DNA of 64,000 nt from Glandiceps talaboti. Its lineage: Eukaryota > Hemichordata > Enteropneusta > Spengelidae. Below the pieces are notes generated by a model. The model worked only from the letters and a program-made list of their open reading frames with translations, was not told where the DNA came from and did not search any database. Position 1 is the stretch's first letter, and every line of letters begins with the position of its first letter. The stretch lies in NCBI RefSeq assembly GCF_964340395.1, contig NC_135556.1:19203642-19267641 (forward strand), given 5' to 3'. This document shows positions 13,401 to 48,829 of the stretch, in pieces. The translations under genes and the position numbers were made by a program.

Positions 13401-16304
13401 ACAACCCCCCCCCCCCCCCATTTAATAGTTTACATTGGCTTATATGATATAAATGTAATTACATTTTTGTATCAGAATTCATTACAAAAAAATGCCATGT
13501 GTACTGTAACATTATTAATTGTTCAAACTTTATCTTTCAGCCTCGACAGACATGTCATAATTTTGTTGTCAGCAATTAATCAAATCTGACATAAAATAAA
13601 TAAAATACACCATTTTATCAAGAACCTGCATTTTGATTAACTGAAAAATGCAAAAGGGAATCTTTCCTATGGTAATAGAATTCCATGCCCATTGAAGGAA
13701 TGTAGACAGAAGTACATCATGTAGCTTATGTTATGATAGGAATTGGCTACACATAGACAATGTTTACATATAGAGATACTGAATGACATTTCACATTGGA
13801 GTCACCATTTTCATTTTATGTTTCTCATAGTACTATCCTTTTAAATTTAAAATAATGGGTAACTGAGTCAGTTGCTTTAAGGAAAAAAACCAAAACAAGT
13901 CTACATAGAAGATGCAGGCCCTCAAAGACATTACTTCTATGTGACTAACAGAGACAGTATTTTAATAGAAATTGGTGTACATCACGCCTTTATTGGGTAT
14001 ATTTGCGGTGGGCTATTGCATTATGGGAGTCAGCAGAAATAATATAGTCATGACTATGAATATTCATGAGAGATGATTCACTCAAGGGAATAAGCACTCA
14101 GGGGTCATTCATTGTGGTGTTCCCCTTTAAATGTTTTGTTTAGATTCAAAAAATATATAGGGACTGTGAGAAACAGAAAAATAAATAGTGTTACCCTTAC
14201 CTTATCAAGTCACACACATGATGTCAATGTAAATAATTCCAACAGATAATTATAACTATGATTTGTGACTTACCTAGATAGGGTGTCAGCAGACAGGTTT
14301 TCATCATCAGTAGTCTGTGTGTTTCCATGACCACGGAAATCAGTTGCTAAGATACGACACCTCACTATCTTAGTCAAATCTTTCTGTCGACAAAAAAATG
14401 AAAAAATGAAAATGAAACAACTATTGTGATAAATTTGTAACAATTTGGTGATGTTTTGAACTAAATCCCAAGCAAGATGTGCGCTTGATATTTCTTAATT
14501 AATGGTTAATTTTATTCATCTAGTAGAATTTATTTTTACCATGTATGCATTTATGATATTCTTTCACACCAGTGTTACACAGGATAGTGACATTCAAATT
14601 CTCAGTCTGTAACAGCCTTTTATTTTACACTAAAGAGTCAAAATAGAACAAGAAGGAGGACTTATTCTCACATGCAACTATAATAAGGCATATAACTATA
14701 GCAAGGGGAGCCAAAGTCACAGTACCATCCAATAGACTGAATCATGTGAATGATTGTTATTTTCATAGATGGTAAAACTCTATTTTGGCTTCTGAGAATT
14801 TTAATATTGCTAGACAAAATTTTTATACTTACTGATAAGACTGCCCATGACAATGCAGAGTGACCACCACCATGTAGTAAATAAAGTACAGGTCCTTCTC
14901 TACCACATTCGTACACTCTAAATGAATCCTCTTCCACTTTGACGTCCTCAACTTTCTCAAAGTAATGGTCCCAGCTTACTGGTGTATAGTCTCTACTACG
15001 ACGTAGTCCATGCCTAAAATTTGATAAATTACTTATCAGGTAAGTATTCTAATGATCTTATCTGGGTTACTGGGGAACACCACTCCAGGAAATAAAGACA
15101 TTTTAATAAACTATGGGTTCTGGAGAGTCATTCCATGATGTTTCATCACCTACAATTACTTGAAATTAATATTCATGAGAGATGCTTTACACTGAGGCTA
15201 ATAAGCACTTAAGCTTCACAAATATTCATTGTTACAATGATGCATCAGCACACAGCAAAGATACCGCATAAAGGCACAAGATCAGCTTGATGTTTCTCTG
15301 AAATTGTAAGTCAGTTTAGGTGATGTGAAATCATGAAAATTTATGAAAATGCCAAACTGGAAATTTGTTTGGGCACATGAACTATCATGTAAAGTGGCCA
15401 TACAACTGTTCTTATCAAATGATGGAATGAAATATAAGTCTCTGTACTTCCAACATGCTATGCCAAGTGTTATTAATCCAATTTAGTTATTTACTCTCCC
15501 TGTTTGTAACAGGTTTGTCCACAGTCTGATGTAGCTGGGAGACTACTTGTTTACACTCAACACTTAATTTCCAGGTGGCAGGGTTTATCACTTGAAGCTA
15601 AATACAAGTATGCACTTCATTTCTAGGACTTGTCATTGTCATAAAGAATGAAAATTAGAATGCTTTAATTGTAAATAACAAAGAAGATCTAAGAAGGGAA
15701 AAAAAGTCACTTTACTCTCATTGTTATATTGAGAACAAAGAAGTTGATGATGGAACACTTCTGAGTTCTCTGATAGTGTGTACACAGAAAGACAATGAAG
15801 ACTGATTGATTGATTGATTGATTAATAATTACACACTTGATACATGCTTCTCAATCTCATAAGCAAAACAAAAACAAAAACAAGCAAACCAAAACAAAAG
15901 AGCAATGAATCTACTGTTTCAAATTTCCCATCCATGATTGCCTTAGTGCTTTGGATTCAAGGAACATATTAAATCCTCGTGAATTTATTGTCTAACTTAT
16001 AATGAGATCATATATTTTAAGAATATCTTTCTCTGACACTGCATGATTCGATTATCATCCATCATCACATTCTACAGTACATGTCATTGTCAGTATCAAA
16101 CTTCACAGACCTGAAACATTACCATGGCATTGCATAATCTGTAAGATACATTGTCAACACAGCTGCAATAACAAGTGAATCTAGTGACTTCGGAACGAAT
16201 ATTACAATACAAACTTACGTTCTTCCGCCAGGAACACCGGCTGGGGGCATTGGAGGTAACCGGCCTGCCATGTTTCTCCTATGCAGCGACTTCTCTAGTG
16301 CCAT
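6788..16304 (-). CDS. PPME1: protein phosphatase methylesterase 1
   Basis: Serine hydrolase that removes the carboxymethyl group from the C-terminal leucine of the PP2A catalytic subunit. Twelve exons (5'->3', given in + coordinates): 16304-16219, 15013-14833, 14383-14274, 12797-12729, 11634-11549, 10815-10725, 10050-9985, 9382-9190, 8410-8350, 7872-7807, 7355-7246, 6901-6788. All have GT-AG borders and join in one frame to 410 residues (human about 386). Alpha/beta-hydrolase features: oxyanion region LLHGGGHSALSW in exon 2, nucleophile Ser149 in GHSMGG (split between exons 4 and 5), acid Asp174 in VIDVVEG, and catalytic His364 in CGHAVHED. Exon 8 encodes an acidic, Gln/Lys-rich insert (EEEDEEGE) longer than in human. 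The C-terminus is also longer (FVPGLALPVIEKLI). It starts 332 bases from C2CD3, head to head. Confidence 0.95.
7180..7220. repeat. hairpin in PPME1 last intron
   Basis: ACCATAGACCCT at 7180-7191 and AGGGTCTATGGT at 7209-7220 are perfect complements with a short CTCCAC/GTGGAG inner stem. It resembles the hairpin after histone H3 at 2921-2975. Confidence 0.7.
7440..7466. repeat. (TG)13 microsatellite
   Basis: Uninterrupted TG repeat followed by alternating CGCATGCGCGCATGCATG, a purine-pyrimidine alternating tract able to take Z-form. It lies in the PPME1 intron next to exon 11. Confidence 0.9.
9505..9755. repeat. TGTAAC-rich inverted-repeat region
   Basis: Repeated and mirrored TGTAACA and GTTACAGC words fold back on one another: GTAACATAGCTGTAACAGTG near 9543 against CACTGTTACAGCAATGTTAC near 9622, plus further copies to about 9755. 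It lies in the PPME1 intron upstream of exon 8. Nature unknown; a decayed foldback element is likely. Confidence 0.5.
10833..11165. repeat. tandem repeat, about 86-bp unit x 4
   Basis: Four imperfect units start at about 10833, 10918, 11007 and 11092. Each has GAACATTGCATAGCAT, then CAGTCAGTA, then a conserved GGCGCCCTCATACA and GGCCAACACC. The fourth is degraded. The array begins 18 bases beyond PPME1 exon 6 in its upstream intron. Confidence 0.85.
11819..12198 (-). mobile_element. TTAA-flanked non-autonomous DNA element (piggyBac-like MITE)
   Basis: Bounded by TTAA at both ends with inverted termini AGCTCCACTAGCTGCAAC (left) and AGCTGCTAGCTATAAC (right, reverse complement). It is 380 bp with no ORF, and homologous in reverse orientation to 4119-4740. 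It lies in PPME1 intron 4. Confidence 0.65.
14030..14130. repeat. dispersed repeat fragment, copy 1
   Basis: ATATTCATGAGAGATG followed by AATAAGCACT is shared with 15165-15215, and GGTGTTCCCC at its right end mirrors GGGGAACACC at 15071. The pair looks like pieces of one inverted-repeat element family in PPME1 introns. Confidence 0.4.
15060..15240. repeat. dispersed repeat fragment, copy 2
   Basis: It starts with TACTGGGGAACACCAC then CAGGAAATAAAG and includes TATTCATGAGAGATGCTT. A third, partial match (ACTGGGGAAGTCCACTTCAG) lies at about 6386 beyond the PPME1 stop. Confidence 0.4.
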
Positions 16305-16636: not shown

Positions 16637-19600
16637 ATGGGAAAGAAGAAGGTAAAGACAAGTAAGAAAGGAAAAAGGCGAGGTACGTATCTCTTGTTTT
16701 CGACTTCATAACACAACATGGTCTAACGGATGAACCAGTCGGTTGATGGCACACAAGCGAACGTGTTCAGTCATGTCAACAATGCTTGTCTCGTCGGTTG
16801 ATCGGGTGTTTTCAAGACGTTTAATGAAATTTGAAATTGAAAAATAACAACGTTTCAATATACTTGTTTCAAAATATATGAAATATTTTCGCGTGTCCAG
16901 GTGATGAGAAGAAATTAGCAATGATTGTAAGTTATAACGGTACTAATCTGACAGCTGAGCTGAGTTGTTATCAGTCTCAGCTCATACAAGTTTTTACAAT
17001 ATTGCGATCCGTAAACCCTGGCAGTGCAAGGATTGGCCAGAGTATGTATTTTCTTTGATTGTAGTAATATTTGCGAGGGCGATATATCAATAAAGTGTCC
17101 CATATTTATTTTGTCTGTATCATCTGACATTATATTATCACATTATATGAATCACGAAGACATAAATTATTCAAAAATCTTCAAGTTCAACGCCCACAGA
17201 CTGAAGTGATGTATGTGTTGAAAACCATCATTTGTTGTGTAGTACTGTTTACGAATATCATAACCTAAAGCTTATGGTTATATTATTAGTATTATCATTA
17301 TTTTCATCACAGACAGCTGACAAAACACTTGTGTTACTTGTCTGTGTTTTCATGAATTCCATAGTCTCCCTAAACTTACATCTTGTTCACTCCGGGTGTA
17401 TGGTTTGTTGGATGTTCTCAGTTATGTGAATGTCACATAGTTTATTACATTAAATAAGACTGTAGTTCATATGTTTATATTGATACATGTATGGTAGTTT
17501 TTGTGACAATTAATGTGAATTTACTGTGTTAAGATTACTCCTTTCTCTTTTCTATTGAGTATTTGTATTTTTTTGTGTTGAGTTTGTTCATTGTGATTGA
17601 AAACAAACCTAAACAAGATGCAATAACTCTTTCCAGTGACACAAGCATTGTTGTAAATATGTTTGCATACATGAAGCGAATGACAGTGTTTTTGCTAAGA
17701 TTGGGAAACCCCAGTAACAGAAAGGGAGAAAGGGGTAAAAATGGCAGTGTTTCCCCATAGAGTCTATGGTAATTATGTATGGGAAATTGGGAACCCAGGT
17801 AAAATGATATGGGAACCCTGGTAGATTTTTACCTACTATACTGCTCTTAGCAAAAACACTGAATGATAATGTATCAATTAACATGCGGCATGTAACTTCA
17901 AAACAAACAACAACATTCTAAATTTCCTTTCCAGTTCCAAGGGAAGATGTTCAAGCCTCAACTGGTTTACCACCGGTTGTTGAAGGTCAGCTGAGATGTT
18001 TCCTTAGAGTTTCCATTAGTAAGATATTATGGATGATTCCCAAACCACCTGATGTTACATACGTCAGTCTGAAATGGTGGGGAGAGTTGGCAGAAGGAAC
18101 AGTCTTTAGGCAAGTACAAATAAACAAAACCATGTGTGATCTGTTCTTCTAAGAATATTCAACTGTATGACTATCACGATTCATATTTGAAAATATTGAC
18201 AAGTTTCTTGTATAAAATGAAATGAAAGGGCAATATATTCTTCCAAGAAAAATAATCATTGAGTTTCAAGAAATATGCATCAAACAAAAGAAGAAATGGT
18301 TATGTTGATCATGTTATTGTACATCCATGTGTTTATTAACATTGTTTACATTCCATGAAATCTTTAGATGGAGCAGTGGGCTCATTGGCTGTGTTGTTTT
18401 TACAAAGTACTAGTTGTCAATGATGCCATTTCTGAAAAAATGTGTGTAACAACATAGATGTAAATGTGTCTAGTGTACCATATTTATACTTTCATGTTTT
18501 ATTAATCCTTGTTATATAATCTATATTTTATGTTTCAGGCCAACAGATGTTAAGAATCCCCAGAAAGGACTCAGTCGTACTACTACAAGATATGGCATCA
18601 GATCAGGTCCTAAGCAGTTCTCAGCTTATGTACATGATATCCTTTTTAATTACATGTATACAACGTTGTATGTGATGACACAATAGCTCTATCCCCCCCC
18701 CATGAACTGTTTTAAAGCCAATTAAAATGATTATTTTTTGTAAAATCAAATTGACAAAAAAAGTCAGCACCCCCCCCCCCCCCCCCCTTAAACAAAACTG
18801 AGCTATGGTTTTGATTCAATTTACTTTAGCATTCTGACTCCACATACCAGTTTTTGATTAGGTGTACTTTAGTTTGTTAATGTTCATTGCAGTGATGACA
18901 CGTCGTTTAAAATTTAGTATTTAGTGGGAAACAACTATATTGTTGAAAATCTTTGTCAAGCATGGGTAAAGAGCTGGAGAATTAGTTCTAGCTCAAAGAT
19001 GGAGAGAAACTGAACATTAATGAAACAAAGAAAGAAATTATTGAACGTTCAATTTTTATGTAGAACAACACTAAATTTGTAAACAAGAAAAATAAGCTAA
19101 GGGATTGAGGCAAACAAAAGTAATACAGTAACTTTGTTATATACCATTGCTTGTAATTGTCAGTCCAGCAATATCTGTGATCTATCTATGAGTGACTTTA
19201 TATCTGTAACTTGTATGTAATTTCCTTAGCATTGTTACATATGGGACCTTTGGTGTTTGAAGTGTTAGCAGGCAGTGCAATGACTCCTATAGGACATGTA
19301 CAGATATTTAACATAGGAGCATTGATTGCCCCAGGAAAACCTTTAAATGGGTAAGTCAAGTGATTTCAAATATGATCAATCTTGTCGATACTTGATCTTT
19401 TGGAAAACCTATTTCAACTAGGTAGGAAAAAGGAGAGATGGAATGAAATATTGGGTACTTGTAAAATTTAAAAGTTAATGTTTTGCTTTACCATACAGAT
19501 CTTTGACAGTGATATTTTGTTACTGTATACAAAGATGTCATTTTCAACAGTGGAAGTGTTACCACAATAACAGTTTTACCCACAGAAAACCCTATCTTTA

Positions 19601-28100: not shown

Positions 28101-31100
28101 TGATAAAACAACTGCAACATGAAACTGTGCCGACTTAGGACATCTATGAGAGCTCTCCTACACCCCTCCTCAAACCACCCTGAACAGGTTCAGTGCATGA
28201 GCATGTATAGTTAACGGTAGTAGTATAAATGCAAATGCATCCTACTCGAGGTAGATCCTAGAATTGCTGAAGTTGGGTGGTCATGTGTGAACAGGCCATT
28301 GAAAAGAAGTTTTAGCAGACTATACAAAATGAATCTATCAACACGTCAATCTAGTGCTGCAATGACAGTTTGAAGACATTTCAATCAGATATGACATACA
28401 CATTTCAAATCTGTACAATTTATCCATTTTCAGGTTGCCCCTGTACTTGTTACTAGTTCCCTGTTGGAACGTACAAGAAGTAACTTTATGGTTGTTGAAG
28501 TGTGGGACAAAAAGACATCGGCTGAGAATGACAAGGTATTACATGGTAACAGTGTGTAGTGGAGCTGAAAAAGAACACAATGTTTATTGTTTTTAAAAAT
28601 ACCCATATGGGTTGAGAGAGGCTATCAGATATTTGCTTCAAATATTTCAATTAATCCTTGTGGGTTAAGACTGCACTAACAAGTTTTATACACTGAGGTA
28701 CTTAAGGTGCACATACATGTGGTACACAAAAATGCGTCGGTTTGAATGTGTTCACGTACACCCTTCACTTTTATATGCTGTAGTAAGAAACAGTCTTTGA
28801 ATTCAATTTTTTGAGTGATATATTACGTTCAACATTATTTACATTGATTACCGTGTTATGTGTCCTACTATTGTCAAAGTTGTATTTCTCTAGATATCAG
28901 TCTGGGAGTTGTTTACAGCTCATTTATTTTGTATTTTCCTTCCCTGTACAGTTGGTTGGTATTGTAAAGTTATCCATACATCAATTCTACATGTCATTCA
29001 GAGATAGGAAGATAGCCAACACTCTACTCAAATCACAGGTAATATTTCAGTATTTCCTATCTTGTACAATACGGCTCAAATATCCCTTTCCAATTTGCTT
29101 GGTGTCAGTCGGTTGTTAACACTAGGCTGGCTTGGTTAAAATAACATCATGCTGGTGCAGGCATTAAGCCTTACAGTTGCTAATACATACTGCTGAGATG
29201 TTTAGTACCAGCCTTGTGCTATCACTGAGCTAGCCTGGTGTTAACATTGGACTGGTGCAGGCATTAACCCTTCCATTTGCTAACACATGCTGGTGAGCTA
29301 TTAGTGTCAGCCTGGTGTAACCTACATTGTTGTGACATAGACACGTGTTGTCATGACGTGGAATGACCAGAGTATATATTCCATATTTTTGGTTCAACTT
29401 GGCTTGTGCATGGTATGAATACTATATATATATCATCATGTCAGTGCAGAAATGTCGTATCTGTTATGCAGTTGAATAGGCAGATACGACCTTACTTTAC
29501 TGATGTGATCATGATATATATCTTGATAGGTCTCACAATGTCATAACTGTTTGTACTTCGGCTAACTTGAAAGACTACTTAAATCCACTGTATTCCTAAA
29601 TTGTTATCGGTGATGTTGTGACCTTTTGTGTTTATTTTTGTACAGTTTCCAGTTGTCGCTGTGGATAACTTTGTACCTATAGTTGATCCATTTACTGGTA
29701 GTCAGTTTGGACAATTGAAGGTGGTGTTAGCATTAGGATCTACTGAACAGGTTGGTATTTTATCACTAAATATGTTATGATGGTAAACACACATATCATT
29801 ACCACTAGTATTTACACTCTCAGAAATATGGAATCGCATTGCAGATATCTCACTGTTCTCTTTAGAATATGGTTATAGAGTTGCAAGAAACTTATGTAGT
29901 TCACATAATTTGTATCTATTTTGTGTATTTATGAAATGAATATTAAGTAGTGGGGAAAACCAATATAGGTAACAATTCTATTTTTCAAAAGACCTAGTGA
30001 TTGCATTTGATAGCAGTAATGGGATTCCAAGTCAGGTCCTTGATCTATGTAAATTTAAATGGAATGATAGCAGACAAATGATGTAATGATTACCATGTTT
30101 TGTTTCAGGTGTCAGCCCTTCAGAGGATAAAACTAGATAGAGAAGTTGTAACCGGTAGAGTAGAAAGACCTGGACAGTATCTTGAAAGGTAACTGATAGA
30201 GTTTGTGTTAAAGTTCCAGGGTATATAATGAATGTATATGTGCTGTGCTGTGCTGTGCTGTGCTGTGTTGTGCTGTGTTGTGTTGAATGCCATGCACAGT
30301 ATACAGCTTAACGTGTGTGCCTGTTATTATCTGGGTATTGTTAAAGCTCCAGGGAAAGTTTTGTTACATGACATTTAATGTATTGTAACTAATTCTTAAT
30401 CTTTTACACAGTTAAAATTCAACATTTGTTGCATAATTTAAAAACTGTAGTACACAGACATTCCATTGAAGTGTCTACCCCCATATTATCAGATGCAAGC
30501 TATCTTTGGAGACCTTGACCATAAACCATGACATTGACCTTCAGGGCCAATTATTAAAATCAAGACAGTTTCTGCCTATCATAGACATTATAGTTAGGGG
30601 GGGGGAGGGGGATGTTGCTTCTACAAAGACTTGTTTATCCTGCTCAGGTCAGTGTGATGTTGATGTCCCATTGAATACTTTATTGTTTATGATGAGCTCT
30701 GGTTTGCTGATCTGTAATTCAATTATGTACATGTAACTAATTACTCTTTATGATCTATACACTTCTATTGTCAGAGCTGACATTGTTGATGACAGAGACA
30801 GACAGCAAGGTCAAGAAGACACAGCTGTGGAACATACATTTGAAGTGGTTGTAGAAGGTGTGAGAGGTCTACCACAGTTAGAGAACGCTGTATGGGGTGA
30901 AGCAGATTGCTTTATACAATATCACTTTCCATCTCAACAAAACCAACAATCCCAAACTGATGGACCTACCATACCACAAGGTAAAACTCAGATAGAGTAT
31001 AGACTATTAGGCAAACTTGGCCAATAATGCTTTTTCCTCCCTAATCACTCAAATTAACAGGTTCCATTGGGAGAACAGTGTTTAAGCACTGAAATGGAGT

Positions 31101-34908: not shown

Positions 34909-37900
34909 TCTACACACATGCACAATCCACACACACACAGACACTCACACACAGACTTATACATTCTAATGACACTACCGTAATAACCGTGTTATAATGA
35001 AATGAAAATGTTGTGAACCTGTTTCTTTATTGTTATGTTTCAGAACATGACGTAAGACACATAGACCTTGGTTCTGAAGGCAGTAAGATAACTGGTAGGA
35101 AATTGTTTGGTAGTACTGGTGATGTCTTATTAGGTTGTACTACTATACCATTGGAATCACTACTCACACACAAAACAGGTCAGTGGTAAACTGAATATAT
35201 CACCTCACTTAATAGTATGAGTCTCAGTGAAGACTCAGTATACAACAATGTTTGATGATCTATCCTTCCCACACCCAATTGAAAAATGTTTACTTTCATT
35301 TATTTGTGATACGCAACCAGATTGTTCACAAATTTCCAAGAATTATTCTGCAGTAAATCTGGTTCAGAAATTGTTGTGCGAGTGGCTACTAATTTCAATA
35401 TATGAAGCTTGTGAAAATTAGAAAAAGGCATCCATGGCAGTGTATGGAGAGTACTGTGTTGTATATACACATGGCTCTTCAGTGGAGATAATTTTGGTAA
35501 CAAATAGCATAAAACAGTTTATGAGTTTCATACATAGCTAAAATAAACAAACCAAAAAAACATTTTTTAAAAACAAAACCAAATGCTTCAACCTTATTGA
35601 ACGTTTCAGAGATCAGAATGTTAATTTTAATCAGCCATTTGTGATACATGTGATACTTCAACAAGTTGAACTAGTTATAATTGTCTTGTAGGTATCAAAG
35701 GCTGGCATTCGTTAAACTTACCAAGTCTTGGCTGGGAGACTACAGCACCTAAAGTATCTAGCAGTGCCAGTGCCAGTGCAAGTCAGCTGTTTACTAATAA
35801 AGGCTTAGAGAGAGTGGCTGGTGGTTTAGAGATTGCTATTACGTTTGCACACCATGATGATAGAGATAGAGTCATCCATGCAGCTAGAGGTGTAGGCTGG
35901 TCACCTGATATGGATATTGAAAATCTCGATGACTTCCTAGACCAAGAAGGTGAGTTATACATATTATACTGTCTTCTTACAAGAAGTCATGAATCAGTAT
36001 TTGAATTTACATAACAAAAGGTTAAATACAACTGGACATAATTATTATTTTAAAAAAAATGATTTCATTCATATTTAGATGTTGCTTTTTTTCCCCAATA
36101 CACTCTCTCGTATTCAGCAAACATAACTAACAACATTTGTGTTTCCTCCACACTCTATAGATGGCAGTTTAACATCTCTATCATCAGAGGTGTCAGTCAA
36201 CCTGGACACAGCATGGTTTCCTGTGAAGTTATCATTGATTGCTGGTCAGACTAGCCTGGATAGACATACTAAAGCCTACATCAGATATAAGTTTTATGAT
36301 AGAGGTAGGTTTTCCTTATTAGGAACTAGTAATGACATCTCATGTAGTTTAGTACCAAACCTTCTCACATGGTATTGCCGTCATGCTGAAAATGCATGTG
36401 ACATCCAAAGAACCCTGTATATTGTGCATGTTGTTAACCCCTGCCTGTTAGTTCCACAACAGATTGATACCTACTGCATACTTTATATTTCAGCTGCTGT
36501 ATGTTCAAAACTGTGTTATCTTGATGTCAGTGACGAGGACTACATCACTGCTGATTTGAAATACTCTCACAACTTTCATTGCCAACCTAGCCAGCCTTTC
36601 ATGTGGTAAGTACAATTTTCATTGCCAACTTAGGCAGTCTTTCATTGCCAACCTGGCCAGCCTTTCAGATGGTAAATACAACTTAGTACTGCTTGTCATA
36701 CCAGTTACTCTAGTGAGTCATACAATGCATCTATATAACTTAATATACTCTTTTATACTGCAGTGTAACCCTCATTGAATTATCAAGCAATTTCTTTAAG
36801 GGCCCAAAATATGTGAAATTTAGATCAGAAAAACAGTTGATCCAGTCAGAAAAGAATGATCACATGTAACCTTTATTACTCCACTGATAAGATAACACTA
36901 ATGTGAGAGCGTGGGATTGAAACTCTGGCCTTTAAATCTAAGAAGCTTGATCACAAAGCATTTGGACACATAATGACAATTGAAGCCCCCTTCTATAAAT
37001 CTTAATTCCATAACTACCAGGTACACAAGGCATTCATCGTGTATCTTATATTTTCACATTGTTGTAATTTGAAACTGACGGTCAAATCGCTATCTGTAGG
37101 TATTTGAGAGAGGAGCGACTAGAAGTACAGCTATGGGTTAGTTACAGTACCGATCCATCGGGTAAAAGGGACAGCAGACCAAGACATAGAGATAAACTTA
37201 TTGGTTGTGCCTACATTGATACCTCTACATTGGCTGATAAGAGAAGACAACATCACAGAATAAGGTAAAATAAACATCACAGTATAAGGTAAAAGTTGTT
37301 TTCATCGTATGTATGAACTTGGTCTTGACAAATCTATCGACAAATGTAAAAACTGTACATTAATTAAACTGTATACTAATATTTGATTATGTCAACTGTC
37401 TTTTCCAGTGGTTTGTATCCATTATTCAAACCTGGATCAGTTGACATGGGAGGTGCTTGTATCAGAGTTCATATTAACATGAAACCACATACTGGACATT
37501 ATGATTCAAGGGTGAGTATTTTGATTTTGTATGTATAGCAGTGTTTTAGCTAAGGTTTGAGAACTATGGTATGAGAAAGGACATATATAGTAAAACTGGC
37601 ATAGTTTTCAATACATTGTACCACAATAGTGATAGGGAACCCTCAGGCTGGTAAAATGACTTGGAAATTCAGCTAGATTTTGCCTGCCTACTGTCCTGTG
37701 AAAATGCATATATCTGTTTTCACTAATAGACTCTGGAGAGAAAAGAATATGGAAACAAGACTTATGCACATGGACACAGGGTATAGGTTATTTCATAGAT
37801 CTTGGCAGGGACTTTCTGGAACTGGTTTGAAGCATATGACAGTTTCAGAAGTGAAACTTTTTACATAGACCAATGATGAGGCGGAATTACACATAAGCAT

Positions 37901-40900
37901 GGCTAGGAAAAGAGAATATGTATTCATGCTGACTGAGTAACTGCTGTCATTTGTTACTATTTTTTCTTATCAACTAAAGCAAACTCTCCTTATATCATCA
38001 AAAACTTATTCAGAAATATTGTGTTCTTTACAGGATGAAGATGAAGATTTTCTTGTTGGTAGTCATGGTGACCGTGTCCATGGAGGTCATGGTCTCAGCA
38101 CTGATGCAGTTACCAGGTCAACACAGGATGAACTCACACCAGAGGATATTGCTGCTAAGGAGAGGGAGATGGAACTAGAAAGAGAAAGGAAAAGGTTGGA
38201 AGAGGAAGAGAGGGAAAGGAAGAGACCACTAGCTATGAAGATTAGTGTAGAGAGAGCCATGCACTTGCCATTTGTAGCTGATACTGGAAGGTAAAGGGAA
38301 TACACCAAGTAGTCATAAAGTATACGTTGTCGTAAACCACAGCCTCTTTTAGTGTCACGGAAGAAATAACAGCTCTGGTTTGCGAGAATGAAAGTACATC
38401 CCTTTATAGAAACACATAGCATTTCAGAATTTAACACACACTGATTTGTCATGATATACAGGTAAGCCTGTTGCATTTTACAGTTTGACATGCATAAAAC
38501 CACTCAGCATTTTACTGCAATACAGCTCATACCAACGGATGTGGCAGTCGGTGTTGACTAAACAAGGAATACAGTGATTGGTGACATAGTGATTGTATGC
38601 TTTCTCTAAACAACTTTATTACAACTGTCACATCTTCTGATTTGGTGAGAATTGCAGTAAAATGTTGGATGGTTTTGATATATGTGTTTGTGATGCAGAT
38701 TGGAAAAGAAGTGTATATGATTCTAATACCCTGATCTTATAATATATTTCAACATTGGAAAATGAGATGAGATTTGGATAATATTAGAGAGACAATTTAT
38801 GTCGTTGCTTGATAAAAAAAAACTTTACTTGAGCATGCAGAGAAGTGTAATTATTTAAGACAAAGCTTCAATGCCAAAGTCGCCTTTGATGTTAACTGTA
38901 TTGTGTACATTGTATATTCCCCATAGAGTACAGGGTAGCAAACCCAACTGTTATGTGACATACAGAGCTGGTGACCACACCATTAATAGTGCAGTCATTG
39001 ACAACAGTGACAGTCCTGTATGGGATCACTCACAAGATTGCCAAATAACCAGGAATGATATGGAAAATAATGTAAGTGTGAAGCTGCTAGAATTCATTTG
39101 ACAGTTTCTATCATATAAGTATAGATTTGGTTTCTAGGCAAATGTAGAGAGGTGGCCAATTATTTTCAATGGTATAATACAAACTAGGTGTGTACTAGGG
39201 AGTCTAATACTATTCATACCCTTACCTGAACTCCTTAGCTGAGTGATAATTTGTATCTCTGTAACTTTCAGTTCTCTGTTCCACATTCTTACCTTTGCCT
39301 CAAAGTACATGTTTACTCATATTTGTGAGATAATGTTTCACTCTTTCATACTAGAAAAGATTACATTGTGCATTCTTAATGCTAGTACACCCAGTAAACT
39401 ACTTTTCTACATTTTTCAACTTACAGAGTTTGGTGTTCAAGGTATGGCATAGGACTTCATCCTCAAAGAGCAAGAGCCCAGGTAAATGTTACATGATGTG
39501 TTAATAATAGATAGGAATGTTTGTACAAAATGGATTTTAAAAATGAGAGCAAACTGTAGAGATGAAGATATTTTATTTGCCAAAAAGGGATATTTTTTAT
39601 TTTAAAATAATGTGAATCTAAATCATAATGTGGATTTACTTCATTTTGTTTTGAACTACATACTATATATAAGTTCATATTCAATTGATTGATTGATTGA
39701 TTGGCTGATTTATTGATTGATTTATCAATATGAATAACATGGATGGTTTATGTCAGTGTGTCAATTGACAATGATGGCGTTAACATCAATGGTATTTTGA
39801 TTGTTCCTATTTGTAGACAGGACAAGTGACAGAGTATTGGGTTTTGTATCAGTGGATTTAGCACCACTACTGGCAGGGTTTAAACAGATCTATGGCTGGT
39901 ATAACATTATGGATTTCACTGGTCAATGTCAAGGGCAAATCAAGGTATGTATTAGATTATGGAGTGTTCTGGGTTGTCTGCAGAGAGTATTCTCACACTC
40001 TATATATATTGTTGCAACACATGTTGAGATACAACAGTGATAAGCTACTGAATGAATATTGGTTTAATTATACTCTCAGTTGAGAGGCATCTCTGAAAAC
40101 TACGATTGTTTATTTTTCAACTGGCCACACACATACAAATGTACCAGTCCATAGGATGACGCAGACAGCGTTTTATTGATATAGTTCCATAAACTTGAAG
40201 TGTACTGTTTTGGGACTTCCAATGTTTACACTATCTTGATCACAGAGTGATTAGAATCACACAACAGAGGAACTGCTATCACCCACTTGTATAATCTACC
40301 ACATTGAAGAACAATAGATTTAGTTTGTGTCTATCTTAGTAAACGTAACCTTCATTATCAGAGTCGTATTTATTCATTTTCTCTGGAACAACATTACCTA
40401 AAGTGACTTTTTATAATATTGCATCGTATTCCAGGTTGGAATTTCACCACTAGAGAGTATCTCTCCATTGAAGAGGAAAGAAAAACCACTAAGTCAACCA
40501 GTAAGTTCATAAAGTGTTATGATGTTTATTGAATCAAATGCACAGTTTTGTGATTATTTATATGTTATACAGTTTAGTTGTACTTGGTACAAAATGTATG
40601 ACTGGTAACCCACTTGTCAAAACCTAACAGCACCCCACAAATTGTCAATTGATTTGATGAACTATCAAATTATTCATACCATATATTCAAGGTTCTGTTT
40701 ACATACTGATGTTAAGTTAGTGTATACAGTACCATTATTAACTTGTAGTGGGGTAATCAACTAATCAGAATAATTGAACCATTTCGAGTTAAAGATTGGT
40801 GTATTGTCATCAGGTGAAATATAACAGGCAACAGTGAAAAGTTACAGCTATTGTGTTTTAAACCCTGCAAATACTTGAATATGTTGTAAATTTCATTTTT

Positions 40901-43414
40901 GTTGTATGTTTCCAGGCATCTCCCAGTCAATCTGCTAAGTTCTCTTCAAGTGCAAGATACTCCACCTTCCCCAGTCATCTAGTACAGTACACAGAGCAAT
41001 CCGTCAGACTGGAAACTGAACCAAAACGACTACATTATGAAGAACACTATGAGAGTGTTAAAAAGTTTCATGAGAGTCTCCAAGAGCAACTCAAAGAACA
41101 AAAACGAGAACAGAGACACAGAGATAAAACAGATGAACGTGAATCTTCTCAGTACCGACAAAGACAACCTGTTCCACAACCAAGTGCTGGTGTCAATGAT
41201 CCGGGAACTTCTAAATCTTTCTTGTTAAATAATCTAAGGTGAGATGATCAGTATTGGTGTATTGTCTTTTGAAGATCACTGCAAGTGCACATCCGTGACA
41301 TGTTTGCATAACAATGTAAAGTCATATTTTCAACATACATGGACAACATAAATTGATTGATTGGTACACTGGTGATTATACTACCATGGTACTAGGGCGA
41401 GGCGAGGTGAGCCACTAGGCATGCACCTTTACACTATCACAAGACACAACACTCATGGTCAGATCATATTCCAACAATTAACTTCTGAAACTCACAAGTC
41501 AGCTCTCATTCTTTCCTCCTACTTACAGTTTTATAAGTCAAAAGACACATTGATATAATTTAGATAATGTCTCTCTTGCTAACTGTCCTGTTACCTTGGC
41601 TTTGGTGTATGAATTCACACTAGCTACACAGATCAACAGCAGGCACTGTACGTAAGTCTAAACATTTTTAATTTATATTTTTGTTGCTTCCATAGGAAAC
41701 AGATGCAAGATCTTGATGATATGCAGAAAAACATGCAGGAGAAACTAAAACGTTATGAAGTTATCACTCCTATTACAACTGAACCTTCTAGACTAGCACC
41801 AGAACACATCCATGACAGTACTGAGTTCTCAAGAAACAGCCAGGATAGTGTCGATGACCTTTTAAGACCAGGTCAAAGTTCACTTCCACAACCATCACAT
41901 CACACTAGGTCAGACAAACTTGAAGACGACATCGATTGGAGTCGACAATTTGGAGAGACTTATAAAATACCAGCTAGGGAAGTGTCTGATGAAGGTATGG
42001 AATATCATGATGTGATTGATGGAGACCACCGAGATCGCCATGACGATGTTGAAAATTTGAATGACAGTGTTCCATTTAGTGATGAGGAAAGTAACCATGA
42101 CGATGCAGATGTTATTGTTCCAAGAGCTCTGAATGATATTTCGTCACCTGATTTCAGTAACTTTGTGCCAGAGTATTCTAGATATAGACAAAGAGATGTA
42201 GGGGATGATACTCATAGTTTACCTTCTGAAATTGCAAGACTTGACACCGATACCAACTCCCCTGTGGAAGATTTCCTAAAACAAGGCCTTAATTTACCAC
42301 CATATGAAAACCAACAAGTTATCGATGAAGAGATTTCTCCTTGGTCGACGCCCTCTAGAGGCGATGTAGGGCCAGTGGAGTCAAAACAACTCGTGTCAAG
42401 AGGAGGTAGTGATGCTGATAAAATTTCTATGAAATCAACAGCTGATGAAGATGAGGAGTATTCCATGTCAGAAGGTCATGAAAGAAACGAACAAGATGGA
42501 TATGCCGGCGATATCGATGAAAGTCGACATGAGCAGCCGCCAAGTCCTGACCTCAATGTGACCGATTCACAACAAAGTAATGTCACTAAACAGTCTTCCA
42601 GCATTGGTGATGTCGTCCCCGGAGAAGAGATCGTCTTTCAGCCAAGACAGAGCACATCTGATGGCGTAACAGAGGAGGGTGAATCACCGGCTGTTGACAG
42701 TCAAAATGAAGAATCTGAACATCAGAGTGAAAAAGACATAAAAACGGATGATGAATCAAATACTGATGAGAAAGATCACGCTGAAGAAGATTTGGATGGT
42801 AGAGTTGAAAGTCAAGGTCAACCAAGACAAGAACCGTCTAGGAGTAGCAGTGATCGAGCTGATAGTGAGAACTCTGTGGTGTTGACATTGTGTCCAAGTA
42901 CAGCTGAACAACAAGAAATAACCAGACAAGAGAAACATCAGCAACCGTATCCTTTATAATACTACATTAATTTTAACATCAATTTCATCAAATTTTGTCC
43001 GGAATTATAGATTGATATTAGCTCCAAATTTAAGTTAACTTCCTAAATACTACCCTGTCAATGGAGGTCTTCGTTTTATACTAAGATAGACTCAAACTGA
43101 AACTATTGTTGTCTTATGTGGTAGATTACAGTAGTGTGAATCTAATCATCTTGTGATCAAGATAGTGTTAACATTGGAAGTCCCTCAAAAATGTATGGTA
43201 CATTGCAAGACCATGTAAGTCATCAGAAATGCCACCCTACTGTGAGTACAATTAAACTAACATCAATCCAGTTTGCTTATGTCAACATATCACAGTAGTT
43301 TTAGTTGTGTCTGTCTTCTTAGTAAACCGAGACCTCCATTGCCAGAGTAGTATGTAAATATTGACAGTATTAAAATGAAAACAATGAGAGTTTTTACAAA
43401 TACATACAGGCATA

Positions 43415-43473
<59 letters not shown>

Positions 43474-43487
43474 ACACACGTACGTAC

Positions 43488-43528
<41 letters not shown>

Positions 43529-43531
43529 CGT

Positions 43532-43572
<41 letters not shown>

Positions 43573-44461
43573 ATGATGTAAAAGTTACAATCATTGTTAT
43601 TTCCAAATGTGTACATTCCTTGACTTAAATGATATTAAGACTAACTACACATACTGAAGATGTTGATGTTCCAAATTTCTTCCTTCCACCACAAGACCTT
43701 GAAGCATCTATGAGGGCGCTGCGCATGGCTACTGCACTGTATCCTAGGTCAGAGGCCAGGACAGTACTGTCAGATGAGGTAAGAATTATTCAAATTTTTG
43801 TAAAGTTCTTCTTGCATATTCCAGAAATTTTGCTGGACCTAGAATTAAAAGAAAAAAAATGTTATTTGTGTAGTTCAAATGGTTTGTGTATAACACTTCA
43901 AATGACTTGTCCATGAAAGTTAGAAGAAACTTATTGATGATATTATGTCAAATGGAAGTTGACAGGACAAAATTTTCACTCAAAAACAATATATATGGTT
44001 ATATTTACTGATGCTTTGTTTTCAGCGCCCTGTGTAGATTGTGTATTTGGGTAAACCATAGCATTTAAATAATGTCCTTCAGATAAGTGTTCCAAGTTGC
44101 AATACCAAACTTTATGTTTATCTTCCCATAAACCAAAATAAAGCAATTTTGCATTTGACTGTGTGTCTGTACTTCTGCCCCATAATAGTGTAAGTACTTT
44201 GCTTTCCCTTTATGATATGTGAAATGTCATTATTTTTTCACCTTTTGTTATTTATCCACGTAGGGTGATGAGAGATCCCAGTATAGATCCCAGACAAGGA
44301 AGGAGTACTCTGATAGACTGGGTACAGCAGCTGGACTTGACAAAGAAAACACTCAGCCCAGTGTCTCCAGAAACAGACCTAGCGTCAGACCAACGCCTAC
44401 AGCAGAAGAAACTAAAAGGATTGCTAAGATTTTCTCAGCTAGATTTTCAAACAAAGACTAA
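16637..44461 (+). CDS. C2CD3: C2 domain-containing protein 3 (centriole/cilium), whole gene
   Basis: Forty-five exons join in one frame to 2588 residues (human about 2350). Exon coordinates are given in the block entries that follow. C2CD3 acts at the distal end of centrioles, is needed for centriole elongation and distal appendage assembly, and so for making primary cilia. Identity rests on block-by-block matches: [15 protein letters not shown] near the N-terminus, [87 protein letters not shown] and [18 protein letters not shown]. Two introns are U12-type, one is GC-AG and the rest are GT-AG. The start ATG (CAAAATGG context) opens a short basic exon, as in vertebrates. The C-terminal exon 43 is unusually long and acidic. 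It lies head to head with PPME1. Confidence 0.96.
17687..17862. mobile_element. small inverted-repeat element (hAT-like MITE), copy 1
   Basis: CAGTGTTTTTGCTAAG at 17687-17702 is repeated as its exact reverse complement at 17847-17862. AATGA directly flanks both ends and may be a 5-bp target duplication. It is 176 bp with no ORF, in C2CD3 intron 1. A related copy lies at about 37541-37697. Confidence 0.7.
18637..19238 (+). other. U12-type AT-AC intron (C2CD3 intron 3)
   Basis: The intron begins ATATCCTTTTT, a perfect U12 AT-type donor, and ends TTAC. A branch motif TTCCTTAGC (19222-19230, one mismatch to TTCCTTAAC) puts the branch A 10 bases before the AC. With these borders exon 3 (G) and exon 4 (AT) make the expected Asp and the reading frame continues. 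No GT-AG choice does this. Confidence 0.92.
19834..19907 (+). mobile_element. retroposon 3' tail with (AAT)n
   Basis: TCGACACTGTGTGAGAAG and a GATTAAATAAAGTCT are followed by (AAT)n, the layout of a truncated LINE/SINE 3' end. It lies in C2CD3 intron 5. Family not recognised. Confidence 0.35.
20165..23428 (+). CDS. C2CD3: C2CD3 exons 6-12: low-complexity linker
   Basis: Exons 20165-20334, 20604-20796, 20927-21173, 21785-21959, 22220-22333, 22613-22705, 23254-23428 give residues 172-560. The stretch is mainly Ser/Asp-rich and probably disordered. It holds the conserved helix [18 protein letters not shown] in exon 8 and the [17 protein letters not shown] motif in exon 10, followed by an acidic Ser run ([12 protein letters not shown]). 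Two very long (CA)n tracts lie in the introns on either side of exon 9. Exon 8 has a duplicated in-frame acceptor upstream (see findings). Confidence 0.9.
20853..20938 (+). repeat. 44-bp tandem duplication spanning a 3' splice site
   Basis: GTATATTTACATATTAATTG...AGGTGAACCCCAGC (20853-20896) is followed by a second copy (20897-20938). Both contain an AG|GTGAACCCC acceptor border, at 20885 and 20927, 42 bases apart, at the start of C2CD3 exon 8. Confidence 0.85.
21567..21655. repeat. (CA)n microsatellite
   Basis: About 88 bases of CA with few interruptions, in C2CD3 intron 8, ending in GTGCGTGCGTGCGCAC. Confidence 0.95.
22057..22139. repeat. (CA)n microsatellite
   Basis: About 83 bases of CA with one CAGA interruption, in C2CD3 intron 9, so exon 9 is bracketed by two long CA tracts. 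Confidence 0.95.
23890..23947 (+). mobile_element. retroposon 3' tail next to an exon
   Basis: CATATGGCAATAAAG followed by (TAT)n, typical of a LINE/SINE 3' end, lies directly before ACATTTCAG, the acceptor of C2CD3 exon 13. The left limit of the element is unclear. Confidence 0.5.
23954..26556 (+). CDS. C2CD3: C2CD3 exons 13-17: second C2 domain and Pro-rich tail
   Basis: Exons 23954-24152, 24450-24568, 24896-25014, 25492-25695, 26227-26556 give residues 561-884. The domain runs from [22 protein letters not shown] through [11 protein letters not shown] and [12 protein letters not shown]. Exon 13 has a basic Lys/Ser/Pro insert ([16 protein letters not shown]). Exon 17 ends in a Pro/Gln-rich segment before the next C2 domain. 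Confidence 0.92.
25917..26083. mobile_element. inverted-repeat element
   Basis: TGTCCTCTAA...GCCAAATTTT near 25919 is mirrored by AAATTGGCTTAGAGGACACT ending near 26081. It is about 165 bp, non-coding, in C2CD3 intron 16. Confidence 0.5.
27199..30188 (+). CDS. C2CD3: C2CD3 exons 18-23: third C2 domain
   Basis: Exons 27199-27334, 27823-27938, 28434-28535, 28952-29038, 29646-29750, 30109-30188 give residues 885-1092 plus a split codon. Landmarks are [78 protein letters not shown] and VVLALGS, all matching the vertebrate order. The donor after exon 22 is the weaker gttggt. The 3' end of exon 18 is duplicated in the following intron (27435-27520). Confidence 0.93.
27435..27520 (+). repeat. decayed duplicate of C2CD3 exon 18 3' end
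   Basis: GTAGCATCACACCCACTGCC...GGACTAGCAG|GTACAG repeats exon 18 end (27298-27334) and the following intron bases (CTTTTCAAATC) at an offset of about 137. The copy has an in-frame TGA and is not a usable coding piece. Confidence 0.8.
29130..29335. repeat. about 100-bp direct repeat x 2
   Basis: GGTGCAGGCATTAAGCCTTA and GGTGCAGGCATTAACCCTTC each begin a stretch with GCTAATACATACTG/GCTAACACATGCTG and a following CAGCCT(T/G)GTG. It lies in C2CD3 intron 21. Confidence 0.65.
29424..29524. mobile_element. small palindromic element, copy 1
   Basis: A 100-base hairpin: GTCGTATCTG pairs with CAGATACGAC around the loop, and ATATATCATCATGTCAGT pairs outward with the reverse of ACTGATGTGATCATGATATA. 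A second copy lies at 54261-54350 in another gene. Confidence 0.75.
30238..30284. repeat. (TGTGC)n microsatellite
   Basis: About nine units of TGTGC/TGTGT in C2CD3 intron 23. Confidence 0.9.
30775..32678 (+). CDS. C2CD3: C2CD3 exons 24-27: fourth C2 domain
   Basis: Exons 30775-30980, 31250-31378, 31927-32021, 32538-32678 end at residue 1283. Landmarks are [48 protein letters not shown] and [18 protein letters not shown] 180-base TACA/CAGA compound microsatellite and a LINE 3' fragment lie in its introns. Confidence 0.94.
31547..31727. repeat. compound (TACA)n-(CAGA)n microsatellite
   Basis: About 120 bases of TACA units interrupted by one CA block, then about 58 bases of CAGA, in C2CD3 intron 25. 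The two tracts share an AC backbone, suggesting a repeat-unit switch by one point change. Confidence 0.95.
32225..32500 (+). mobile_element. LINE (non-LTR retrotransposon) 3' fragment
   Basis: A 60-codon reading frame ending TAG at about 32430 reads [19 protein letters not shown], the 'APKLWNSLPLDIR' motif that ends many LINE reverse transcriptase ORFs. The 3' tail (TTACTTGTAAGTAATTAG, then TCGTGTGACAAGAACCG) is shared with sequence inside the element at 46492-46962. 5'-truncated, in C2CD3 intron 26. Confidence 0.75.
33134..35949 (+). CDS. C2CD3: C2CD3 exons 28-32: fifth C2 domain
   Basis: Exons 33134-33286, 33646-33750, 34234-34414, 35044-35178, 35692-35949 give residues 1284-1560. Landmarks are [17 protein letters not shown]-type [47 protein letters not shown] and [11 protein letters not shown]. 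The block ends with [19 protein letters not shown], the start of the next domain. Confidence 0.93.
34857..34906. repeat. (CA)n microsatellite
   Basis: A 50-base CA tract within a wider C/A-rich stretch (34670-34960) containing three ACACAGATCTACA repeats, in C2CD3 intron 30. Confidence 0.9.
36161..37511 (+). CDS. C2CD3: C2CD3 exons 33-36: sixth C2 domain
   Basis: Exons 36161-36304, 36494-36605, 37100-37264, 37409-37511 end at residue 1735. Landmarks are [60 protein letters not shown] and [10 protein letters not shown]. The exon 34 end and its donor are repeated in the intron (36617-36683). Confidence 0.93.
36573..36683 (+). repeat. local triplication of C2CD3 exon 34 3' end
   Basis: TTTCATTGCCAACCTAGCCA...GGTAAGTACAA at the exon border is followed by a short partial copy (36617-36640) and a fuller copy (36641-36683) with CAGATGGTAAATACAA, so a second potential donor exists. 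Confidence 0.85.
36860..37010 (-). mobile_element. tRNA-derived SINE-like element
   Basis: On the minus strand it has a box-B-like GAGTTTCAATCCCACGCTCT. ACTGATAA, ACACTAATG, GGGATTGAAACTCTGGCC and TTTAAATC align with 48955-49025. In C2CD3 intron 34. Confidence 0.55.
37541..37697. mobile_element. small inverted-repeat element (hAT-like MITE), copy 2
   Basis: It starts CAGTGTTTTAGCTAAG and contains GGGAACCCTCAGGCTGGTAA and AGATTTTGCCTGCCTACTG, matching 17687-17862 (GGGAACCCTGGTAGATTTTT). More diverged; the right terminus is not clear. Confidence 0.55.
38034..40500 (+). CDS. C2CD3: C2CD3 exons 37-41: last C2 domain
   Basis: Exons 38034-38290, 38927-39071, 39427-39481, 39817-39944, 40435-40500 give residues 1736-1952. 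Exon 37 begins acidic and carries a strongly charged helix ([19 protein letters not shown]), likely coiled coil, before [13 protein letters not shown]. Then come [43 protein letters not shown] and the highly conserved [18 protein letters not shown]. Confidence 0.94.
40145..40375 (-). mobile_element. TA-flanked MITE, copy 2 (inverted)
   Basis: The reverse complement matches 43050-43350 over most of its length: GTTTACTAAGATAGACACAA, AATGTGGTAGATTA, TGTGATCAAGATAGTGTAAA and CATTGGAAGTCCC. It lies in C2CD3 intron 40. The left end is diverged. Confidence 0.7.
40916..44461 (+). CDS. C2CD3: C2CD3 exons 42-45: acidic, mostly disordered C-terminus
   Basis: Exons 40916-41238, 41696-42946, 43640-43778, 44264-44461 give residues 1953-2588. 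Exon 42 has [20 protein letters not shown], like the vertebrate RRFHESL region. Exon 43 starts with a conserved coiled coil ([18 protein letters not shown]) and continues as a 400-residue Asp/Glu/Ser-rich stretch with no visible domain. Its frame would run on to a TAA at 42959, but a perfect U12 donor (GTATCCTTT) at 42947 removes that stop. Exon 44 ([19 protein letters not shown]) and exon 45 ([20 protein letters not shown], then TAA) keep conserved-looking protein in frame. Confidence 0.88.
43050..43350 (+). mobile_element. TA-flanked MITE, copy 1
   Basis: Inverted ends CTACCCTGTCAATGGAGGTC and (reverse complement of right end) CTACTCTGGCAATGGAGGTC are flanked by TA on both sides, the mariner/Tc1 target. 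It is 301 bp with no ORF, inside the U12 intron. Confidence 0.8.
43416..43571. repeat. (CA)n array
   Basis: About 155 bases of CA in three blocks split by ACGTACGTACC and AAACGCGTGCG, 46 bases before the U12 branch point of exon 44. Confidence 0.95.
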
Positions 44462-46962: not shown

Positions 46963-48596
46963 TATCAATCCCAATACCAAATAGCTATACACATCTCAGT
47001 TAGCTGTAACTGGTACTATGTTTTTCAGAATTTTTTTTCTTACTTTTGGCGTATTTATACTCCACAAAATGTACTTTACTAGAATGTATGATCAGCTAGT
47101 TATTGCACCCTACAAATGTACAATTTGTTGACAAATGAGTTTAGATTTAAATTGTGACTGTTTACAAACTGACACCAAGTCACACAGTACCATCAATGAT
47201 TGGTAGAGAAGTAATTCAGCTGATTACAATCATTGAATAGTTTCACTTTTGATGCACTTTTCAGCTGGCAATTTTTTTTTTTAAATTTCTCCAAAAATAT
47301 TGAAAATTTACAGTAACTGAGATTTTAACATCAGCGATACTGTGACGTTCACCTACTGTTAGGTTATTCACTAAATTGTACAAGTGCACAAAAACAGGTT
47401 GTATATATATAACCTACCAATGCTGTGTAAGTTCTAACAGTGCACCTAGTAAGGATATATATATAAGTCCTTACAATGTTACATAAGTATAAACACATGA
47501 CAATGTAATCACATAACAGCGTGAAGCTTACCAGAAAGTTCTCTTAAAAATGGGGGAAAATGTTGGGATATACAGAAATACGAAAGTAACAATTCCCCAA
47601 TAAAAAAATTCAAAATCAAAAACACCAGAATTCATAAATTATAATGCCATACTAAAAACATATTCTTGTTTTTCCCCGTTTCATTCTGAAAAAAAAATGT
47701 GTCCTGAGATATTCTACCAAAAACTAATTTACATTATGTACAAGTACACTTAATTAAACATGAGCATTTTTTACCCTTACATAACCCTCCCCCCCCCCCA
47801 AAAAAAAGCCAAAAATAAAAACAAAAAAACAAACAAACAAAAATACACACATGACTGTATTGTTCAATTACATGACCCATTGCACTGTTTTGAAAAACTA
47901 CTCTTTTTTTAAAAATAAGTGCTATCAATATTCAAATTTTGTAATGTGGGGGAAAACAACAAATCATTCAAATTTTTGTATGCAAGCTGCAAGATATAGA
48001 GAACAGCTGTTGTTTCCATGTGTATATATACACACACACTTCAATATATAGCAGATATTAACCAGCAATTAATTTTTGTTGTTGGATTGGGTTTTTTTTT
48101 TGACAAATTACCTTTCAGTAAGAAGTCAAACTGTATTTTGATAGATTACATACTGCAAATCAAAACAGATTCCTACAAATGCCCAAAATATTGTAATTTC
48201 ATCTGAATATCATTTACTAGATATGATTTGCTGAAAATAAGTGAACAAAATCAAATCTTTTATATTGTTATGTACGGTAGTTTAAAATATTGTATATTGA
48301 CAAGTAAAAGTTCCAAAGACATGAAATGAAATAAGTTAGTAGTGAAGTGTCAAATAATTAAACAACGTAAAAGTAAAAGTAAAGGTAAAGAAAATGTGTA
48401 CTTGATACTTAGGAGAACCAAGACAATGACAGCTTGATAGCAGAGTCTAGAACTCAAACACATCATTTTTGTTCTAAGCAACTAACAGTGCACTAGTTAC
48501 ATACCATAAAAAACACCTAAAAATCATACTGAAGAGAAGAGTTTGGATTTTTTTATGCTTCTGGAAAAAATGAACATGTCCTTGAACTTTCCTGAA

Positions 48597-48829
48597 ACCA
48601 TCCTGACTTAGGACACCTACAGGAGGTTACCTAATATCATCCTGACTTAGGACACCTACAGGAGGTTACCTAATATCATCCTGACTTGGGACATCTACAG
48701 GTCTCCTGAAACCATCCTGACTTAGGACACCTACAGGAGGTCTAATGAAACCATCCTGACTTAGGAGACCTACAGGAGATCTCCTGAAACCATCCTGACT
48801 TTAATAGGACACCTACAGGATGTGAGTAC
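48597..48829. repeat. minisatellite, about 42-47-bp unit x 5
   Basis: Units contain CCATCCTGACTTAGGACACC and TACAGGAGG with variable joining segments (TTACCTAATAT or TCTCCTGAAA). A single related stretch (CGACTTAGGACATCTATGAG) occurs in C2CD3 intron 19 at about 28132. Confidence 0.9.

Follow-up and report, generated by a model that had tools for sequence, protein, structure and literature searches.

A predicted U12-type GT-AG intron ahead of the C-terminal tail of C2CD3 in the hemichordate Glandiceps talaboti is probably an ordinary minor intron

Introduction

Minor (U12-type) introns carry a 5' splice site with the consensus RTATCCTTT and a branch site with the consensus TTCCTTRAC, and the branch adenosine usually lies about 10–20 nt from the 3' splice site. 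They are biased against phase 0, and they cluster in the same genes in 21 of the 21 genomes tested (PMC7367187). AT-AC introns make up 26% of human U12 introns, and alignments from the same study place 127 minor introns in both human and acorn worm, 102 of which are also shared with the sea slug (PMC10639083). Across eleven mouse tissues, 467 of 722 minor introns were found without retention, and those that were retained were shorter (PMC6717393).

A loss of C2CD3 residues, taken here as C-terminal, has been described in the chicken mutant talpid2, where 19 bp are deleted at the 3' end of exon 32 and residues 2210–2330 are missing from the protein. In transfected fibroblasts, the FLAG-tagged truncated form was both stable and localised. 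A cilium was extended by 32% of talpid2 fibroblasts, compared to 64% of controls, and the mother centriole rarely associated with the ciliary vesicle, docking being rare as well. The exon 32 deletion was called likely causal, a second variant (Ala782Pro) not being excluded by the authors (PMC4197679).

In mouse, C2cd3 has 33 exons, and an isoform lacking the C-terminal epitope was predicted, although the antibody employed did not detect it (PMC8239364). C-terminal variants of C2CD3 may exist; among the papers listed for its isoform lengths and last exons, none with a map of the 3'-terminal exons was found. Here we describe the 3' end of a C2CD3 orthologue in which a minor intron separates the last two coding exons from the rest of the gene.

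Results

Gene model and surroundings

The DNA analysed (the window) is a 64-kb stretch of the G. talaboti genome. A C2CD3 orthologue was modelled by hand on its forward strand (16637–44461), with all exons joined in frame and a single stop. The model has 45 coding exons and a coding sequence of 7767 nt including the stop, corresponding to 2588 residues. Its 44 introns comprise 41 GT-AG introns and one GC-AG intron of U2 type, and two introns of U12 type. The protein was scanned for domains in four pieces rather than at full length. Its N-terminus matches the Pfam family C2_C2CD3_N (PF25339, E = 2.4e-42), and a single match to the classical C2 domain (PF00168, E = 1.4e-18) is located further along. 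In these four pieces the expected architecture, an N-terminal C2CD3_N domain followed by a classical C2 domain, is present; five classical C2 domains are attributed to mouse C2cd3 (PMC8239364). A search of the PDB with the N-terminal domain or the last C2 region returned nothing useful.

An exon of protein phosphatase methylesterase 1 lies at about 14832–15014 on the reverse strand (PDB match 7soy_P, E 8.1e-21), such that this gene and C2CD3 are arranged head to head on opposite strands. PPME1 is presumably the neighbour of C2CD3 in the human genome as well. The window opens with the end of an NHL-repeat protein (1–418; PF01436), followed by an intronless histone H3 gene (2208–2618) and a histone 3' stem-loop (2648–2693; RF00032, Histone3), which is the only family that Rfam finds in the window when gathering thresholds are applied. 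At 48590–48820, about six units of 39 bp that contain ACCATCCTGACTTAGGACACCTACAGG are repeated in tandem, and a phrase that is loosely similar, judged by eye, lies near 28130.

Intron 43 and its splice signals

Exon 43 (41696–42946, 1251 nt) is followed by intron 43 (42947–43639), a GT-AG intron of 693 nt in phase 2 identified from the gene model and splice-signal scoring. Its 5' splice site, GTATCCTTTAT (42947–42957), agrees with the U12 donor consensus at 9 of 9 positions, as does its branch-site motif, TTCCTTGAC (43616–43624), with the branch consensus. The branch adenosine (43623) precedes the final base of the intron by 16 nt, and the terminal AG (43638–43639) is not preceded by a polypyrimidine tract: the pyrimidine fraction at the 3' end is 0.46, compared to a minimum of 0.54 among the U2-type introns. 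Apart from introns 3 and 43, no intron of the gene (42 in all) exceeds 6/9 for the donor or 7/9 for the branch site. Conversely, intron 43 scores −3.48 as a U2 donor and −5.73 as a U2 acceptor, against lowest values of 4.61 and 4.33 among the 42 U2-type introns, from which the matrices themselves were made. Its phase 2 is in keeping with the reported under-representation of phase 0 among U12 introns (PMC7367187). The initial annotation, which had placed an exact U12 donor, an exact U12 branch site and a closing AG at these positions, was correct in its coordinates, letters and GT-AG assignment. At the level of sequence, intron 43 is confirmed as a real U12-type intron.

Either motif by itself is not rare. 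The two strands of the window contain three copies of the donor motif and two of the branch motif, compared to means of 1.66 and 1.25 in 200 dinucleotide shuffles. The combination of donor, branch site and suitably placed AG or AC occurs once in the window, at a shuffle mean of 0.025, with one such combination in 5 of the 200 shuffles; it is unlikely to have arisen by chance. The shuffle test is blind to location: it takes no account of the precise coincidence of the site with the end of an open coding exon, nor of the in-frame join to a coding-like exon. It is the position of the motifs at frame-preserving exon ends that carries the U12 assignment.

Intron 43 is the second longest of the 44 introns and contains two inserts. 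An element with terminal inverted repeats (43049–43351, forward strand), whose outermost 22 nt agree at 20 positions, is bordered by 8-bp flanks that share 5 of 8 bases, without a clean target duplication; a diverged, partial and inverted relative of one half of it is located in intron 40 (40203–40372). A (CA)n microsatellite, also given on the forward strand, occupies 43417–43571. Without the CA repeat and the inverted-repeat stretch (43044–43356), the intron would measure 225 nt.

Exons 44 and 45

The exons downstream of intron 43 score as coding. Codon scoring was trained on exons 1–42 and on all introns except intron 43; the stretches used for comparison share sequence with the training sets, an overlap that works in favour of those stretches and not of the tail. 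Exon 44 (43640–43778, 139 nt) has one stop-free forward frame, with a log-odds of 18.0, compared to a mean of −24.7 and a maximum of 6.9 for intron stretches of the same size; one of its reverse frames is also open (0.356 per codon, compared to 0.391). Exon 45, the last coding exon (44264–44461, ending in TAA), scores 26.2 against an intron maximum of 2.7. A second forward frame of this exon (+1) is open as well, with a log-odds of 18.6, and exon 45 alone is thus less decisive. Taken together, the 112-residue tail scores 51.7. Equal-length stretches of exons 1–42 average 45.1, while noncoding stretches of that length average −56.3 and reach at most 9.3, and none of 3,378 overlapping ones attains the score of the tail.

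The tail has no relative in Pfam or the PDB, and its one match in NCBIfam (E 0.099) is meaningless. The portions of PMC8983040, PMC8103285, PMC5065992 and PMC4837335 that deal with C2CD3 contain nothing on it. The conservation that the initial annotation ascribed to the tail is a supposition.

A second minor intron

Among the 44 introns, only intron 3 (18637–19238, forward strand) is comparable. It is a U12-type AT-AC intron in phase 1, with the donor ATATCCTTTTT (9/9), the branch site TTCCTTAGC (19222–19230; 8/9) and a terminal AC, and it splits the C2CD3_N domain, the junction falling in codon 107 within a domain match that spans residues 25–169. Intron 2 (18110–18538), just before it, has a GC-AG boundary (GCAAGT), so that the first three introns of the gene display three boundary types.

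C2CD3 was thus correctly said to hold U12 introns of both subtypes. The further suggestion that such a pair is uncommon is not supported, given that U12 introns tend to fall together in particular genes in every genome tested (PMC7367187). Assuming a U12 rate of 0.4–0.5% and independence, a second U12 intron would be found among 43 further introns with a chance of 16–19%, and, from the human AT-AC share (PMC10639083), the probability that a pair of U12 introns is of mixed subtype comes to 38%. On the same assumed rate and independence, at least two U12 introns would occur in 1.4–2.1% of random 44-intron genes, which makes the pair mildly unusual before clustering is allowed for. On the strength of the clustering and these sums, we rejected the pair as a rarity. 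The frequent sharing of minor introns across animals (PMC10639083) makes an old, shared position plausible for a C2CD3 intron.

Consequences of retention

If intron 43 were kept, translation would read P-Y-P-L and stop at an in-frame TAA (42957–42959), giving a product of 2480 residues (ending ...QQPYPL) instead of 2588. The initial annotation had foreseen this early stop. Its distance of five codons is right if the split codon is counted and not otherwise, and its loss of 112 residues describes the fate of the tail but not the exact size: 111 residues would be removed and YPL added, the split codon encoding proline in both products. An in-frame stop would be met on retention of 43 of the 44 C2CD3 introns, within five codons in 15 of the 44, and the stop of intron 43 was accordingly rejected as a special feature.

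Decay that depends on a downstream exon junction follows a rule of roughly 50–55 nt. From the stop at 42957–42959 to the last junction downstream, that of exons 44 and 45, there are 819 nt, far more than this rule requires, and decay would therefore be the expected fate of the retained RNA. Two ATTAAA hexamers inside intron 43 (43251 and 43369) could in principle allow intronic polyadenylation and a stable product.

Intron 33 (36305–36493, 189 nt, GT-AG) has a length divisible by three and contains no in-frame stop; its retention would add 63 residues in frame. It would be a better candidate than intron 43 for a protein variant produced by retention.

Discussion

We consider it likely that intron 43 is an ordinary minor intron that is normally removed, and whose retention would be non-productive. 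The minor spliceosome would join exon 43 to exons 44–45, giving the 2588-residue protein with its tail, which is presumably needed in G. talaboti. The short reading frame that runs into the intron would be incidental. An RNA that kept the intron would most likely stay in the nucleus or be degraded by nonsense-mediated decay. Were it translated, the tail-less protein would resemble the talpid2 product, which is made and localised and is poor at supporting cilium formation; the loss is close in size to that in talpid2, which suggests that the retained-intron protein would function poorly.

The annotation of this region had instead proposed that retention would serve naturally to switch C2CD3 between a long and a short C-terminus. 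Tissues would choose between a spliced, long-tailed and a retained, short-tailed C2CD3, both of them functional. An in-frame stop close behind the donor, the ATTAAA hexamers in the intron and the predicted mouse isoform without the C-terminal epitope (PMC8239364) would fit such a scheme. However, retention of almost any intron of C2CD3 would bring in a stop, the distance from stop to last junction predicts decay, and a similar truncation in chicken is accompanied by impaired ciliogenesis (PMC4197679). Retained minor introns also tend to be short (PMC6717393), whereas intron 43 exceeds all but one of the introns in the gene. We regard this switch as very unlikely. It is somewhat easier to imagine, though still unlikely, that the two minor introns tie the output of C2CD3 to the activity of the minor spliceosome, for example to the level of U6atac. 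Low activity would then yield unproductive RNA and less protein, and no short isoform would be needed; this would add to the ordinary-intron reading rather than oppose it. Control of this kind has been proposed for minor introns generally, U6atac being the limiting component in HeLa cells (PMC3728624), C2CD3 has two such introns on which it could act, and partial loss of ZCRB1 disturbs the splicing of ciliary minor-intron genes (PMC13216214, in whose main text C2CD3 is absent). On the other hand, the locus displays no sign of dosage control, and most mouse minor introns are without retention (PMC6717393). C2CD3 is differentially expressed in failing human hearts, yet the account of these hearts describes no overt systematic change in the mRNAs of minor-intron genes (PMC8767276).

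It is also conceivable, with very little probability, that the end of the gene is mis-modelled, exon 43 being terminal or exons 44–45 being joined by U2 splicing, with the U12 motifs a coincidence. The few shuffled windows that contain a complete donor-branch-AG/AC combination, a U2-like donor inside exon 43 (42679, score 7.17), and the additional open frames in exon 44 (reverse) and exon 45 (forward) could be read this way. However, the tail outscores every noncoding stretch with which it was compared, and all 12 AGs in 43591–43779 fall short of the weakest U2 acceptor in C2CD3: the best (43759) scores 3.76 against the minimum of 4.33, and only one of the 12 scores below the AG at 43639. A competing U2 intron overlapping intron 43 was rejected on these scores.

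A more far-reaching extension of the talpid2 parallel may be considered as a long shot. Intron 43 might be an ancient, shared minor intron ahead of the tail-encoding exons, such that faltering minor splicing would, through retention, yield a stable, correctly localised and inactive protein like that of talpid2, which would sit at centrioles and prevent ciliogenesis. From the talpid2 residue numbers, chicken exon 32 would end about 110–120 residues from the C-terminus (PMC4197679). If true, this would link cilium formation directly to minor-spliceosome activity, and the talpid2-like product would be one route to the ciliary phenotypes of minor-spliceosome disease.

With intron 43 read as an ordinary minor intron, the locus adds a clean pair of AT-AC and GT-AG minor introns in a centriole gene. 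A switch is not to be deduced from an intronic stop, nor from a second U12 intron in the same gene. The similarity in size between the loss on retention and the loss in talpid2 provides a lead on whether minor splicing gates ciliogenesis through C2CD3.

Comparison with known systems

Talpid2 loses 121 residues, taken here as the C-terminal end, compared to the 111 that retention of intron 43 would remove, and it arises by a 19-bp deletion rather than by intron retention (PMC4197679). The correspondence between chicken exon 32 and exon 43 of G. talaboti is suggested by residue numbers, without an alignment.

As in the model of embedded molecular switches (U6atac/p38), failure to remove intron 43 would block full-length expression; that model concerns expression level generally (PMC3728624). 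Human C2CD3 is, like its counterpart here, a named minor-intron-containing gene, in one sentence of PMC8767276; the passage on C2CD3 in that paper gives neither the position nor the number of such introns, and PMC7010808, the one other paper matched by C2CD3 together with minor-intron terms, supplied no position. Compared to the animal GT-AG U12 introns catalogued in intronIC/IAOD and MIDB, intron 43 is alike in its donor, branch site and phase 2, and it shares with them the short distance from branch site to AG and the lack of a polypyrimidine tract. It does not differ from them in kind, its length being raised by a transposon-like insert and a CA repeat.
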